Shown piece by piece: positions 33,965-39,650 of a stretch of DNA of 62,427 nt. The stretch is taken from the NCBI GenBank assembly GCA_005883955.1, contig VAXH01000072.1, positions 1 through 62,427 of the forward strand, in the 5' to 3' direction. Position numbers and translations under genes: made by a program. The first letter of the stretch is position 1. The number at the start of each line of letters is the position of its first letter. Under the pieces are notes generated by a model, which made no database searches, was not told the DNA's origin, and worked only from the letters and a program-made list of their open reading frames with translations. This stretch comes from Actinomycetota bacterium (GTDB lineage: Bacteria > Actinomycetota > Thermoleophilia > Gaiellales > Gaiellaceae).

Positions 33965-36658
33965 ATGCGTAAGCTCCGCCGGGTGGGAGGGCTCGCGCCA
34001 GAGGAGGCGTTCGCGCTCGTCGCCGAGCCGAGCGAGTCGCTGGCTGGCGAGGCAAGGCGGCTTCGGGAGCTCGGCCATGGCCGGCTCGTGACCTACTCGC
34101 CGAAGGTCTTCATCCCGCTGACGAAGCTCTGCCGCGACGTCTGCGGCTACTGCACGTTCGCGCGGCCGCCACGGCGCGGGGAGCGCGCGTATATGAGCGA
34201 GGACGAGGTGCTCGAGGTCGCGCGCGCGGGGGAGGCAGCCGGGTGCCGCGAGGCGCTGTTCACCCTCGGCGACAAACCGGAGCTTCGCTATCGGCTCGCC
34301 CGCGACGAGCTCGCGGCGCTCGGGTGCTCGACGACGCTCGAGTATCTTGCGCGCTGTGCGCGGCTCGTGCTCGACGAGACGGGCCTGTTGCCGCACGTGA
34401 ACCCCGGCGTGCTCTCGCTCGACGACGCGCTTGCTCTGCGCTCGGTCTCTGCTTCCCAGGGGCTAATGCTCGAGACGACTGCCGCCCGGCTGGCTGAGCG
34501 GCGTGGACCGCACTGGGCCTCGCCGGATAAGCAGCCCGCGACGCGGCTGGCGACGATCGAGGCTGCGGGCGAAGCGCGCGTGCCGTTCACGACGGGGATC
34601 CTGATCGGGATCGGCGAGACGAGGCAGGAGCGGGTCGAGGCCCTGCTCGCGATCCGCGAGCTCGACGAACGCTTCGGCCATGTCCAGGAGGTGATCGTCC
34701 AGAACTTCCGCGCCAAGCCGGGAACCCGGATGGCGGCCGCCCCGGAGCCGCCACTGGCGGAATTGCTCTGGACGTGCGCAGCCGCGCGGCTCGTGTTGGG
34801 GGCCGCGCGGAACATCCAGGCGCCGCCGAACCTGAGCTACGCGGATTTTCCGCGCCTCCTCGAGGCCGGCATCAACGACTGGGGCGGCGTCTCGCCGGTC
34901 ACGGTCGACCACGTCAACCCGGAAGCCCCCTGGCCCGAGCTGGAGCGGCTGGCCGAGGGGACGCGTTCGTGCGGACTCGAGCTGGCGCCGCGACTCACTA
35001 TCTATCCCGAGTACATCGCCGAGCTCGGTCGCTGGGCCGACACCGCCATCGCCCCGCACGTCCTCGCGCTCGCCGACGGAGAAGGCCTTGCGCGCGAGGA
35101 CGAGTGGGCCGCCGGCCAGGCCGAGAGCTTCCAGGGCGCCTTGAGCTCGCGGGGGCACGGCTTGAGTTCCCCGGGCCACGCTTTGAGCTCCTGGGGCCAC
35201 GCCTCGAGCTCCTGGGGCCGGCCCGACAATCCGCACAGTCCGAACGGCGCCGACAGCCTCGAGAACCCGTCGCCGCGGGCTACGGCGTCTTTTCAAGGCG
35301 CACCCAACCTCCTCCCCGCGGCGAGCCTATCGAGCAAACGCGCGCGGGAGGAAAACGGCTCCGTGCCGGAAGTGTCACGATCGGAAGCGGTTCCGCCTCG
35401 GGGAGTGGGATCCCACGGTCTGCCGGTCTCGCCTCCGATCGCCCAAGCGCTGGCGAAGGTGCGCGAAGAGGTCGAGCTGGGCGAAGACGACGTCGCGGAG
35501 CTCTTCCGCGCTCACGGCGACGACTTCGCTGCGGTGGTGGCGGCTGCCGATGCGCTTCGCCGCGAGGTCTGTGGCGACACCGTCACCTACGTGGTCACGC
35601 GGAACATCAACTACACGAACGTCTGCTACTTCCGTTGTGGGTTCTGCGCCTTCTCCAAGGGCAAGCTGGCGGCCAACCTGCGCGGCGCGCCGTACCTCGT
35701 TCCGGTCGACGAGATCGTCCGCCGCTGCGAGGAGGCCTGGGAGCGCGGCGGCACCGAGGTCTGCCTGCAGGGCGGCATCCATCCCGCCTTCACCGGCGAC
35801 TTCTACGTCGACATCTGCCGTGCGATCAAGGAGGTCCTGCCTGACCTGCACGTGCATGCATTCTCCGCGCTCGAGGTCTGGCAGGGCGCCGCGACGCTGG
35901 AGCTGCCACTGCGCGACTACCTGGCACGGCTGCAGGCGGCCGGCCTCGCCTCCTTGCCCGGGACGGCGGCGGAGATCCTCGACGACGTGATCCGCGCCCT
36001 CATCTGCCCGGACAAGGTGACGACCGAGCAGTGGCTGCAGGTGCACGAGACCGCGCACGAGGTCGGCCTGCGCTCGACGACGACGATCATGTTCGGGCAC
36101 GTCGACGGACCGCGGAACTGGGCCAGGCACCTGCTGCGCCTGCGTGAGCAACAGCAGCGTTCGGGCGGCTTCACCGAGTTCGTTCCGCTGCCGTTCGTCC
36201 ACATGGAGGCGCCGATCTACCTCCACGGCCGGGCTCGCCGCGGGCCGACCTTCCGCGAGTCCGTGCTCATGCACGCGGTCGGAAGGCTCGCCCTTCACCC
36301 CGCCATCACGAACATCCAGGCCTCGTGGGTGAAGCTCGGCGTCGCCGGCGCCCAGGCGGCGCTGCGGGCCGGTGCCAACGATCTCGGCGGGACGCTCATG
36401 AACGAGTCGATCTCCCGCGCCGCCGGTGCGAGCCACGGCCAGGAGTTGCCGCCCGAGGCGATGGAGGCGGCGATTCGCGCCGTCGGCCGGGCGCCGCGCC
36501 AGCGGACGACGCTCTACGGGGAGCCTGCGCTGGAGCGACGGCAGGCCTCGTTCGGCGCGCCTCCGCTCGCGGAGCCGCTCAACCCGAGCGTCAACGACGC
36601 GAACCTGAAGCCGCCCTCCCGGCTCGTCAGACCGGGCATGGCTGCGGCGACTTCGTAG
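33965..36658 (+). CDS. fbiC: Bifunctional FO synthase (CofG-CofH fusion)
   Basis: 897 residues with two radical SAM halves. The CofG-like N-half has the iron-sulfur motif C56xxxC60xxC63 (CRDVCGYC) and PNLSYADFPRLLEAGINDWGG; the CofH-like C-half has C554xxxC558xxC561 (CYFRCGFC) and LGGTLMNESISRAAGASHG. It makes FO (7,8-didemethyl-8-hydroxy-5-deazariboflavin), the chromophore of F420, from 5-amino-6-ribitylamino-uracil and tyrosine. The linker (about residues 393-490) is long and low in complexity and starts with four copies of a seven-residue repeat. Supports the presence of F420-dependent PPOX proteins nearby. No clear ribosome site at ATG 33965. Confidence 0.95.
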   Translation: MRKLRRVGGLAPEEAFALVAEPSESLAGEARRLRELGHGRLVTYSPKVFIPLTKLCRDVCGYCTFARPPRRGERAYMSEDEVLEVARAGEAAGCREALFTLGDKPELRYRLARDELAALGCSTTLEYLARCARLVLDETGLLPHVNPGVLSLDDALALRSVSASQGLMLETTAARLAERRGPHWASPDKQPATRLATIEAAGEARVPFTTGILIGIGETRQERVEALLAIRELDERFGHVQEVIVQNFRAKPGTRMAAAPEPPLAELLWTCAAARLVLGAARNIQAPPNLSYADFPRLLEAGINDWGGVSPVTVDHVNPEAPWPELERLAEGTRSCGLELAPRLTIYPEYIAELGRWADTAIAPHVLALADGEGLAREDEWAAGQAESFQGALSSRGHGLSSPGHALSSWGHASSSWGRPDNPHSPNGADSLENPSPRATASFQGAPNLLPAASLSSKRAREENGSVPEVSRSEAVPPRGVGSHGLPVSPPIAQALAKVREEVELGEDDVAELFRAHGDDFAAVVAAADALRREVCGDTVTYVVTRNINYTNVCYFRCGFCAFSKGKLAANLRGAPYLVPVDEIVRRCEEAWERGGTEVCLQGGIHPAFTGDFYVDICRAIKEVLPDLHVHAFSALEVWQGAATLELPLRDYLARLQAAGLASLPGTAAEILDDVIRALICPDKVTTEQWLQVHETAHEVGLRSTTTIMFGHVDGPRNWARHLLRLREQQQRSGGFTEFVPLPFVHMEAPIYLHGRARRGPTFRESVLMHAVGRLALHPAITNIQASWVKLGVAGAQAALRAGANDLGGTLMNESISRAAGASHGQELPPEAMEAAIRAVGRAPRQRTTLYGEPALERRQASFGAPPLAEPLNPSVNDANLKPPSRLVRPGMAAATS
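35141..35224 (+). repeat. Four 21-nt tandem repeats in the fbiC linker
   Basis: Units begin at 35141, 35162, 35183 and 35204, each opening TTGAG or TCGAG, and encode LSSRGHG / LSSPGHA / LSSWGHA / SSSWGRP. They lie between the CofG and CofH halves. In-frame repeat expansion would lengthen the linker without harming either domain. Confidence 0.85.
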
Positions 36659-36661
36659 TCG

Positions 36662-37054
36662 CTAGTCGCTCCACCAGTCCTGAATCGTCTCAGCGTCACC
36701 GGGACCGGTGTTCGGGGCGCCGACGGCGAGGACCTCCGCCCCTCCGGGACCGCCCTCGAACGTGCGCACCGTGTCCTTGTCGACGCGAAGCACGTCCCAT
36801 TGTCCGAGCTCGATGACGTCGTCGCCGACCTTCGCCCGCATGCTGCCGCTGACGACGATGTAGGCCTCCTCCTGATTCTTGTGCTTGTGCGCGAACGGGA
36901 GGCGAAAGTTCGGTGCGATCCGCTGATAGCTGAGCCCGAAGTGCTCGAGCTCGAGCGGCACACGCGCCATCCTCGCTTCGAGGTCAGGGGCGAGACCGAA
37001 ATTCGGCGCCTGGTCTTCGACCTCCTTCAGGTTCAGGGTCGTGTATCCAGCCAT
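36662..37054 (-). CDS. Cupin-domain protein
   Basis: 130 residues from ATG 37054, with GAGGAGG seven bases upstream. Single cupin barrel: RLPFAHKHKNQEEAYIVVSGSMR carries the HxHx4Ex6G metal motif, and the second motif region is near RVDKDTVRTFEGG with the usual His replaced, so the metal site may be incomplete. Function unknown; likely binds a small molecule or sugar. Ends 3 bases from the fbiC stop (convergent) and diverges from the leuS leader. Confidence 0.8.
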   Translation of the reverse strand: MAGYTTLNLKEVEDQAPNFGLAPDLEARMARVPLELEHFGLSYQRIAPNFRLPFAHKHKNQEEAYIVVSGSMRAKVGDDVIELGQWDVLRVDKDTVRTFEGGPGGAEVLAVGAPNTGPGDAETIQDWWSD

Positions 37055-37098
37055 TGGTTTCCTCCTCGAATTGACGTGACGTGACGCTACTGCGTTGC

Positions 37099-37104
37099 TA
37101 CAGT
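37099..37104 (+). promoter_or_regulatory. -10 element of the leuS leader transcript (TACAGT)
   Basis: TACAGT ends 8 bases before the ATG of the leader ORF at 37113, so that ORF would be translated as a leaderless message. A TTGACG lies at 37071-37076, too far for standard spacing. Confidence 0.45.
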
Positions 37105-37112
37105 CCGTCGCA

Positions 37113-37133
37113 ATGGAGCAGCTGCTTCTGTAG
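37113..37133 (+). CDS. Leucine-rich leader peptide of leuS (M-E-Q-L-L-L)
   Basis: ATG GAG CAG CTG CTT CTG TAG: six residues, the last three all leucine, directly followed by hairpins and an intrinsic terminator before leuS. The arrangement matches amino-acid attenuation leaders, here for the enzyme that charges tRNA-Leu. Part of the leucine codons (37123-37128) is complementary to 37140-37145, which also pairs within the next hairpin, giving two exclusive structures. Confidence 0.6.
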   Translation: MEQLLL

Positions 37134-37137
37134 TCCA

Positions 37138-37172
37138 GGGAAGCAACGCGGCGGCAAGCCGCGGAACTTCCC
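37138..37172 (+). other. Hairpin in the leuS leader (candidate regulatory stem)
   Basis: GGGAAG (37138-37143) pairs with CTTCCC (37167-37172), enclosing a 6-bp CGCGGC/GCCGCG stem with loop GGCAA. The 5' arm can instead pair with the leucine codons of the leader ORF. The stem ends 3 bases before the terminator. Confidence 0.55.
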
Positions 37173-37175
37173 ACG

Positions 37176-37199
37176 GCCTCTCGATCGAGAGGCTTTTTT
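37176..37199 (+). terminator. Intrinsic terminator before leuS
   Basis: GCCTCTCGA/TCGAGAGGC (37176-37193) followed by six T. It stands 15 bases before the leuS ATG and on the same strand, so it must be read through or prevented for leuS expression; this fits attenuation. Confidence 0.8.
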
Positions 37200-37214
37200 G
37201 TTTCTGGAGGCGCA

Positions 37215-39650
37215 ATGGATCGGTACGAGCCACAACAGGTCGAGGCCAAGTGGCAGAGGGTCTGGGAGGACGCGCGCGCGTTCTACGTGTCGAATCCGGA
37301 TCTGCGCGACGCGCCGGAACGCAGGAAGTTCTACATGCTCGAGATGCTCCCCTATCCCTCGGGCAACCTGCACATGGGGCACGTGCTCAACTACACGCTT
37401 GGCGACGTGGTCACGCACTTCCGGCGCCGGCAGGGCTACACCGTCCTGCGACCGATGGGTTTCGACTCGTTTGGGCTGCCGGCCGAAAACGCCGCCATTC
37501 GCGGCGGCGGGCATCCGCGGGAGATAACCGAGCGGAACATCGCCGCGATCCGTGCCCAGATGCACAGGCTCGGCTGGGCGATCGACTGGGACCGCGAGGC
37601 CTCGGCCCACGAGCCGGAGTACTACCGCTGGACGCAGTGGCTGTTCCTGAAGTTCTACGAGGCCGGGCTCGCCTACCGGAAAGCGGCGCCGGTCAACTGG
37701 TGCCCGAACGACCAAACGGTGCTCGCGAACGAGCAGGTGATCGACGGCCGCTGCGAGCTCTGCGGCACCGAGGTCGAGGCGCGAAATCTCGAGCAGTGGT
37801 TCTTCAGGATCACGGCGTATGCCGACGCCTTGCTCGACGACCACGTGACGATCGACTGGCCGGAGCGTACGAAGGCGATCCAGCGCAACTGGATCGGGCG
37901 CTCCGAGGGGGCGGAGGTGCTCTTCCGGGTCGGGGAGCTCGATCTCGACCTGCCTGTTTTCACGACACGGGCGGACACGCTCTTCGGCGCCACGTTCATG
38001 GTGCTCGCGCCTGAGCACCCCCTCGTCGAGAAGCTCGCCGTCGGAACCGAGGAGGAGGGGGCGGTGCGCGAGTACGTCAAGCGCACCGCTGCCCGATCGA
38101 CGGAGGAGCGCGAGACGAAGGAGAAGGACGGTGTCTTCACCGGGCGTTACGCCGTCAACCCGGCGACCGGCGAGCCGGTCCCGATCTGGGTCGCCGACTA
38201 CGTCCTGATGGAGTACGGCACCGGCGCGATCATGGCGGTGCCCGCGCACGACGAGCGCGACTTCGAGTTCGCGCAGCGCTACGAGCTGCCGGTCGTCGGC
38301 GTCGTCGAGCCGGCGGACGGTTCGGCCGAGGAGGCCGAGGGCCCCTTCTCCGCGCACACCGAGGACGAGCGGCTGGTCAACTCAGGGCAGTTCTCCGGCC
38401 TGCCGGCGCCCGAGGGCGCGCGCGAGATCGTCGCGTGGCTGGGCGAGCGCGGACGCGGACGGCCGGCGGTCAGCTACCGGCTGCGCGACTGGGGCTTCTC
38501 CCGGCAGCGCTACTGGGGGTGCCCGATTCCGATCGTCTACTGCGACGTGTGCGGGATCGTCCCCGTCCCCGAGGACGAGCTGCCCGTGCTGCTGCCGGAG
38601 GTCGAGGACTACAGGCCGAAGGGGATCCCGCCGCTTGCGTCCAACGAGGAATGGCTGCACGTGCCCTGTCCTCGCTGCGGTCGCGAAGGGCGACGCGAGG
38701 CCGAGACGATGGACACCTTCGTCGACTCGTCGTGGTACTTCCTACGCTACTGCGATCCGCACAACGACCAGGCGCCGTTCGATCGCGCGCTCGCGGACTA
38801 CTGGATGCCGGTCGATCAGTACATCGGCGGCATCGACCACGCGACCGGCCACCTGCTCTACTCGCGCTTCTTCGTCAAGGTCATGAACGAGCTCGGCCTC
38901 ATCGGCGTTCGTGAGCCCTTCGCGCGCCTGTTTCACCAGGGCTGGGTACGCCTCGGCGGCTCGAAGATGTCGAAGTCGCGCGGCAACGTGGCCGCGCCCG
39001 ACCAGCTGGCCGAGATGTACGGCGCCGACGCCGTCCGCCTCTTCATCCTCTTCATGGGCCCGGCCGACCAGGACATGGAGTGGACCGAGGAGGGAGTCGA
39101 AGGGATCGCGCGCTTCTTGCGACGGCTGTGGCGGATCGTCACCGAGGTGGCGGTGCAAGCTCCCGGCGACGGTCCCGGAGACGGGTCGCTCGCGCGGAAG
39201 ACCCACGAGACGATTGCGAAGGTCACCGACGACATCGGCCGGCGATTCGTCTTCAACACGCCGATCGCCGCCGTGATGGAGCTCGTCAACGAGCTGGCGC
39301 CGGCGACCAGCGATCCCGCCGCACGGTTTGCGTCCGAGACGGTGGTGTCGCTGATCCAGCCGTACGCCCCGCACATCGCGGAGGAGCTCTGGGAGCGCCT
39401 CGGCCACGAGCGTCTCTGGGAGCAGCCCTGGCCCGTCGCCGAAGACGCACTGCTCGAGCGGGACACGTTCGAGCTCGTGATTCAGGTCAACGGCAAGGTG
39501 CGCGACCGGCTCGAGGTCTCCGTCGATCTGCCTGAGGCAGAGCTGATCGAGCAGGCAAAGGCGTCGCCCCGCGTGCAGGCGCAGCTCGACGGCCGGGAGA
39601 TTCGCCACGCGATCGTCGTTCCACGCAAGCTGGTCAACTTCGTCGTCTGA
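37215..39650 (+). CDS. leuS: Leucyl-tRNA synthetase
   Basis: 811 residues, class Ia synthetase. [16 protein letters not shown] holds the HIGH motif and SKMSKSRGN the KMSKS loop. A CP1 editing domain is present ([43 protein letters not shown]), and a zinc-ribbon-like C-x2-C pair lies near [10 protein letters not shown] and CELC. It charges tRNA-Leu and removes mischarged Ile/Val products. CTGGAGG seven bases before ATG 37215. Preceded by a leader ORF, hairpin and terminator, so it is probably controlled by leucine or charged tRNA-Leu supply. Confidence 0.96.

Follow-up and report, generated by a model that had tools for sequence, protein, structure and literature searches.

A probable leucine-sensing transcription attenuator with a six-residue leader upstream of leuS in the Gaiellaceae

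Leucine attenuation of leuS, the gene for leucyl-tRNA synthetase, is already known in Actinomycetota. Attenuators upstream of leuS were predicted in 2005 for Streptomyces coelicolor and S. avermitilis by Seliverstov et al., who regarded them as classical, with a leader ORF followed by antiterminator and terminator hairpins 5′ of the gene (PMC1262725). In S. lividans, the leader leuL2 (MRAVRLLLSEPR, followed by a stop codon) was mapped upstream of leuS in 2021 and is leaderless according to 5′-end RNA-seq (PMC8079986). The LEU element of leuA in Actinobacteria likewise involves a leader with Leu codons; it differs, however, in that a pseudoknot is formed at leuA, whose Shine-Dalgarno sequence is the partner of the Leu codons, and the authors doubt classical attenuation in that case (PMC1262725). 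The accessible part of Naville and Gautheret 2010 (PMC2965389) does not mention leuS. Synthetase genes are also controlled, often through termination, by T-box riboswitches (RF00230).

The locus described here lies in a window of 62,427 nucleotides, the whole stretch of DNA that was analyzed, from a 2.56 Mb draft genome of the family Gaiellaceae (class Thermoleophilia). All of the following features are on the plus strand, and between 37099 and 37200 a TANNNT box, a start codon 8 nt further on, a tiny ORF, a hairpin and a terminator follow each other, with leuS next. The −10 box TACAGT occupies 37099 to 37104, and a −35-like GTGACG (37076 to 37081), 17 nt 5′ of it, is a weak candidate by sequence. 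The leader ORF (37113 to 37133, ATGGAGCAGCTGCTTCTGTAG) encodes MEQLLL followed by a stop, with the Leu codons CTG (37122), CTT (37125) and CTG (37128). Downstream, GGGAAGC (37138 to 37144, strand 2) is able to pair either with CTTCCC (37167 to 37172, strand 3) or with the Leu codons; the hairpin of strands 2 and 3 (2:3) encloses an inner stem, CGCGGC/GCCGCG (37147 to 37163), seen in the fold. The intrinsic terminator (37175 to 37200) consists of GGCCTCTC-GATC-GAGAGGCT (37175 to 37194) and six T (37194 to 37199), and its stem begins 41 nt beyond the leader stop codon. A Shine-Dalgarno GGAGG (37206 to 37210) precedes leuS (37215 to 39650, ATG at 37215, 811 aa), which was identified by its ORF and a match to TIGR00396. 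The 102 bases from the leader ATG to the gene (37113 to 37214) fold with −46.6 kcal/mol (z = −2.8 against 200 shuffles), and the terminator scan returned one site versus 0.3 in shuffled sequences. The parts that the preliminary description had listed, from the TANNNT box and leaderless ATG to the terminator, are thus all in place. Since they recur by strict rules in 46 of the 71 distinct leuS upstreams from the family, the arrangement is not due to chance.

Two neighboring reading frames were observed as well. A divergent ORF on the minus strand (36662 to 37249), cupin-like by eye, has its intergenic region in common with the leader promoter, and similar sequence lies 5′ of the leader in several relatives. 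Further upstream, an ORF of 897 aa (33965 to 36658) has two CxxxCxxC-type motifs and resembles a fused FO synthase (CofG/CofH, cofactor F420).

Compared with leuL2, the window carries the same elements directly 5′ of leuS, namely a leucine leader (leaderless as judged by its spacing to the −10 box) whose Leu run includes CTT, a hairpin and a terminator with its U run. The leuL2 leader differs in several respects: it has 12 residues, its strand 2 lies within the final part of the ORF, its 2:3 stem is longer and its terminator has another sequence (PMC8079986). The two do not fall under a common model of sequence and structure either, as a covariance model of the Streptomyces type (R2, see below) has no match in the window genome. 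As had been proposed from the start, the region is not a T-box: no Rfam family matched in the window, and RF00230 had no match in the window or the whole genome.

A gene matching leuS was found in all 103 genomes of the family, in 90 of them above the family cut-off. Upstream regions were taken only where the start of leuS was in the match list, and the 90 loci together with the window yielded 71 distinct regions. By a strict rule, demanding a terminator, an ATG or GTG, two successive Leu codons (LL) and a stop, 46 of these 71 regions qualified, so that LL is present in the 46 by selection. Without the two-Leu requirement, and with the sequences read by eye, LL occurs in 53 of the 58 terminator-bearing upstreams; five loci (L009, L027, L065, L069 and L079) combine an LL leader and a terminator in forms outside the strict rule. 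The preliminary description had stated that relatives keeping the terminator but not the Leu codons would speak against it. While the 53 regions bear it out, five of the 58 do not: two keep the terminator with a leader lacking consecutive Leu codons (a single Leu in L003, Leu-Ala-Leu in L021), and three (L018, L034 and L038) keep it without any Leu leader. This loss seems to stem from a deletion or a draft-assembly join. In L034 and L038 (genomes G004 and G009), the coding part of the divergent cupin-like gene seems to be joined to the terminator directly 5′ of leuS.

The remaining regions include L013, with leader and hairpin but no terminator, perhaps owing to an assembly gap, and L030, which has a Streptomyces-type leader on a foreign-looking leuS. 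Leader and terminator are both absent in 11 of the 71 upstreams. Neither is found in genus g8 (L023, L026, L029 and L050 to L055), where most loci share a block like GCTGAGGTAG.TTTCTAGA approximately 50 nt 5′ of leuS, which probably represents another promoter arrangement.

The preliminary description had suggested a survey of leuS upstreams in Thermoleophilia for short Leu-codon ORFs with terminators. Beyond the 46 regions found by the strict rule, a covariance model built from these 46 leaders (R1) found matches in 74 of the 103 family genomes, located 5′ of leuS where checked; the number rises to 75 among the 129 genomes of the order and to 76 among the 399 of the class. Each matching genome had one match, save for a second place in G075, a tRNA with a terminator that was dropped as chance. 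Outside the family, G121 is the single convincing case, situated 5′ of leuS with the leader start cut off by the contig end; a weak match in G236, a terminator without a Leu leader, was likewise dropped as chance.

With regards to the leader itself, the LL pair is encoded by eight different hexamers in the 46 leaders (CTTCTT, CTGCTT, CTTCTC, CTGCTC, CTGCTG, CTCCTC, CTCCTT and TTGCTT), which differ at third positions and once by a change from CTG to TTG. The residue following the first LL is variable (L, P, E, A, T, R, Q or I). As LL is kept with a nearly free choice of codons while the next residue is free, selection appears to act on the amino acids. The codons are also unusual: of the 110 Leu codons in these short MxxLLx ORFs, 62 are CTT, as opposed to 27 of 798 in 15 leuS genes or matched parts (Fisher p = 4 × 10−44).

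In all 46 relatives, the TANNNT box ends 7 to 11 nt 5′ of the leader start (7, 8, 9, 10 and 11 nt in 16, 14, 9, 5 and 2 leaders, respectively), while in control positions of the same upstreams TANNNT stood at 6 to 10 nt for only 5 of 1150. Only 10 of 46 have an nTGACn motif within the range of 15 to 20 nt 5′ of the −10 box, in each case at a distance of 17 or 18 nt. The spacing of the TANNNT box to the start fits a leaderless leader, as judged from sequence. A transcription start between 37176 and 37214, which would have been at odds with the preliminary description, is unsupported since no TANNNT occurs there. Taken together, the retention of LL, the preference for CTT and the −10 spacing fit a leaderless leader that is read by ribosomes and senses leucine by a poorly used codon, and the proposal of a leucine attenuator with a leaderless six-residue leader is backed by conservation, synonymous third-base change, rare-codon use and promoter spacing.

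Hairpin 2:3 was followed across the 46 leaders by exchanging strands between genomes. The complementarity of strand 2 to its own strand 3 was 15.4, compared to 13.7 ± 0.3 for swapped strands (best of 200 swaps 14.6), and pairing with the own strand 3 exceeded the mean of other genomes' in 35 of 46, in a test that does not remove shared ancestry. RNAalifold on alignment A1 returned 15 pairs only, two with double changes, because gaps shift strands 2 and 3, and therefore the swap test was used instead. The distance from LL to the start of strand 2 is 9 to 11 nt in 33 of 46 leaders when taken from a free fit, a version with the fold barred up to the ribosome edge being circular. Three leaders (L021, L027 and L079) are longer, with a stop inside or past strand 2, and in these the last Leu codon is still 10 to 11 nt from strand 2 (by eye). 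In E. coli, the ribosome extends approximately 15 nt past the first base of the P-site codon. With such a footprint, a ribosome with a Leu codon in its A site would end just 5′ of strand 2, whereas one that has reached the stop would cover it. Constrained folding predicted 2:3 in 45 of 46 leaders with the ribosome on the Leu codons and in none of 46 with the ribosome at the stop, a loss that is largely built in because the ribosome was set to cover strand 2; by a looser count, strand-2 pairing above 0.5 persists at the stop in 13 of 46.

The terminator, situated between leader and gene, was predicted in 46 of 46 leaders in both ribosome states. The gap from the 2:3 stem to the terminator stem is 2 or 3 nt in 30 of 46 folds and 0 to 6 nt in 45 of 46, and hairpin and terminator have no base in common. 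An antiterminator sharing bases with the terminator stem, as in the classical form, is thus absent, and with the terminator folded in both states, base pairing alone cannot account for a switch. The preliminary description had looked in vain for an arm overlapping the terminator stem; its absence is confirmed and proves to be conserved across the family, where the 2:3 stem ends 5′ of the terminator. Moreover, the terminator arms are near-invariant across the 46 relatives, beyond structural need alone. The sequence is present in a single copy in the window genome, which rules out a genome-wide repeated terminator as the cause.

We consider it highly probable that the leuS leader in the window is a leucine-sensing, ribosome-mediated transcription attenuator, in which the response to starvation and the direction of the effect would be as follows. 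Transcription would start at or just 5′ of the ATG, so that ribosomes load directly at the 5′ end with no need of a Shine-Dalgarno sequence. When charged tRNA-Leu is scarce, the ribosome would stall on the Leu codons with its front edge just 5′ of strand 2. Strand 2 would be freed to pair with strand 3, and the resulting hairpin would end 2 to 5 nt 5′ of the terminator stem. This nearby helix would then keep the base of the terminator from closing in the exit channel of RNA polymerase, leading to readthrough into leuS. With ample leucine, the ribosome would reach the stop (in longer leaders, pass through strand 2) and cover strand 2; strand 3 would stay unpaired, the terminator would close and transcription would end. 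That abutting 2:3 blocks closure by steric means is a tentative step, to which we give somewhat less than an even chance; from both leader types, the one described here and that of Streptomyces, we infer that the abutment may be functional. However, if 2:3 stacks coaxially on the terminator, termination could be favored instead.

A reduced arrangement was observed in L020 and L024/L084, with a leader VQDLL.. and no 2:3 hairpin directly 5′ of leuS. In L020 and L024, strands 2 and 3 are lost and LL lies about 5 nt 5′ of the terminator arm (by eye). The same logic may apply here with the stalled ribosome as the obstacle over the terminator arm, and these loci possibly represent a minimal form of attenuator, with the terminator masked by the stalled ribosome and not by a hairpin.

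Several other explanations were weighed against a leucine-sensing attenuator. Classical attenuation could have been missed if strand 2 paired with the terminator arm T5, or the Leu codons with T3. The mean duplex energies of these pairings are appreciable (−6.1 and −8.5 kcal/mol, respectively), and in untranslated RNA the probability of the terminator is at most 0.5 in L010, L025, L039, L057, L059 and L067 (L089 was discounted for misplaced arms). Yet 2:3 (−10.4 kcal/mol) is stronger than 2:T5 in 44 of 46 leaders and T5:T3 (−12.8 kcal/mol) is stronger than the pairing of T3 with the Leu codons in 46 of 46, while the Leu codons are beneath the ribosome in both translated states, which makes such a hidden antiterminator unlikely. 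Conserved LL with synonymous changes and one TTG, the frequency of the rare CTT and a parallel leader in Actinomycetes speak against a constitutive partial terminator behind an inconsequential mini-ORF, with a fixed leuS level and no leucine control. This reading draws on the terminator being predicted in every translated state and on the three of 58 relatives that retain it without a leader, and we regard it as very unlikely.

A ribosome close behind RNA polymerase might also suppress the terminator directly, without a role for 2:3. Termination at tR2 in E. coli is reported to be almost abolished by a stop codon lying a few bases 5′ of it (PMC4824070), and the LL codons adjoin the terminator in L020 and L024. 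According to the same paper, however, attenuators keep more than 20 bp to avoid such an effect, and the leader stop in the window is well beyond this distance; a direct effect would moreover predict readthrough in plenty rather than in starvation and leave the conserved 2:3 pairing over, so that its probability is, if anything, slightly lower still. The least probable of these readings is that the near-invariant palindrome GCCTCTC-N4-GAGAGGC is recognized by an unknown regulator, either as an operator in the DNA or as a site bound by protein in the RNA: its arms hardly vary and it has one copy in the genome, but a T run follows it directly, the upstream leader features would be left over, and the Streptomyces type has a different, equally constant terminator.

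For the Streptomyces type, leuS upstreams from elsewhere were considered (160 loci, of which 152 were placeable with enough upstream sequence). The leader was found in three genomes of 8 to 9.5 Mb as MRAVRLLLSEPR or MRAVRLLLSGPR, with L283 and L285 carrying the leuL2 peptide of S. lividans, MRAVRLLLSEPR, and L284 differing from it by one residue; L290 has VRTGLLLTEPR, and a leader match in L200 was chance-like. Four leaders of this type were combined into the covariance model R2, which matched 114 of 296 genomes of the Streptomyces class, spread over 50 of 114 genera, and 13 of 246 in a set covering the phylum, all counted as matches to the model regardless of the gene downstream. In the class of the window, one of 299 genomes matched, on a contig of G006; the leuS of G006 is only 40% like that of the window over an N-terminal query, and it was therefore taken as foreign and the match rejected as native.

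In 20 diverse folds of the Streptomyces type, the gap between 2:3 and the terminator was 0 in 18 and 1 in two, and the distance from strand 3 to CCCTC was exactly 3 in 37 of 41 distinct leaders (from 44 of 50 loci). TANNNT ends 6 to 7 nt 5′ of the start in 39 of these 41, under a script that required TANNNT within 3 to 12 nt. As folded here, the antiterminator of these sequences does not overlap the terminator, whereas the 2005 authors spoke of classical attenuation, their prediction being compared by its text (PMC1262725). The preliminary description had deemed it unusual that so minimal a leaderless leader should control a synthetase; this does not hold, given the published Streptomyces precedent (PMC8079986, PMC1262725).

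Two leader types without a common model thus share a leaderless start, a CTT-rich Leu run and a ribosome-gated hairpin flush with a terminator that it does not overlap. They may, although we put this at rather less than even, exemplify a general class of attenuators in Actinomycetota, with two sequence-unrelated leuS forms, whose antiterminator is always separate from the terminator and in which a flush (0 to 5 nt), ribosome-controlled hairpin blocks closure sterically. So far as the literature found shows, neither the six-residue form and its spread nor the conserved lack of overlap has been described before, and no work on leader peptides in Gaiellales was found in a search that covered few subscription journals. 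Leucine attenuation of a synthetase gene would hereby be extended to a Thermoleophilia family that is known from draft genomes, with a leader that is among the shortest buildable, LL and one codon before the stop. Its many natural variants suggest that an attenuator is possible without a strand common to hairpin and terminator, and make sharply testable the question of whether a helix abutting a terminator can stop termination.
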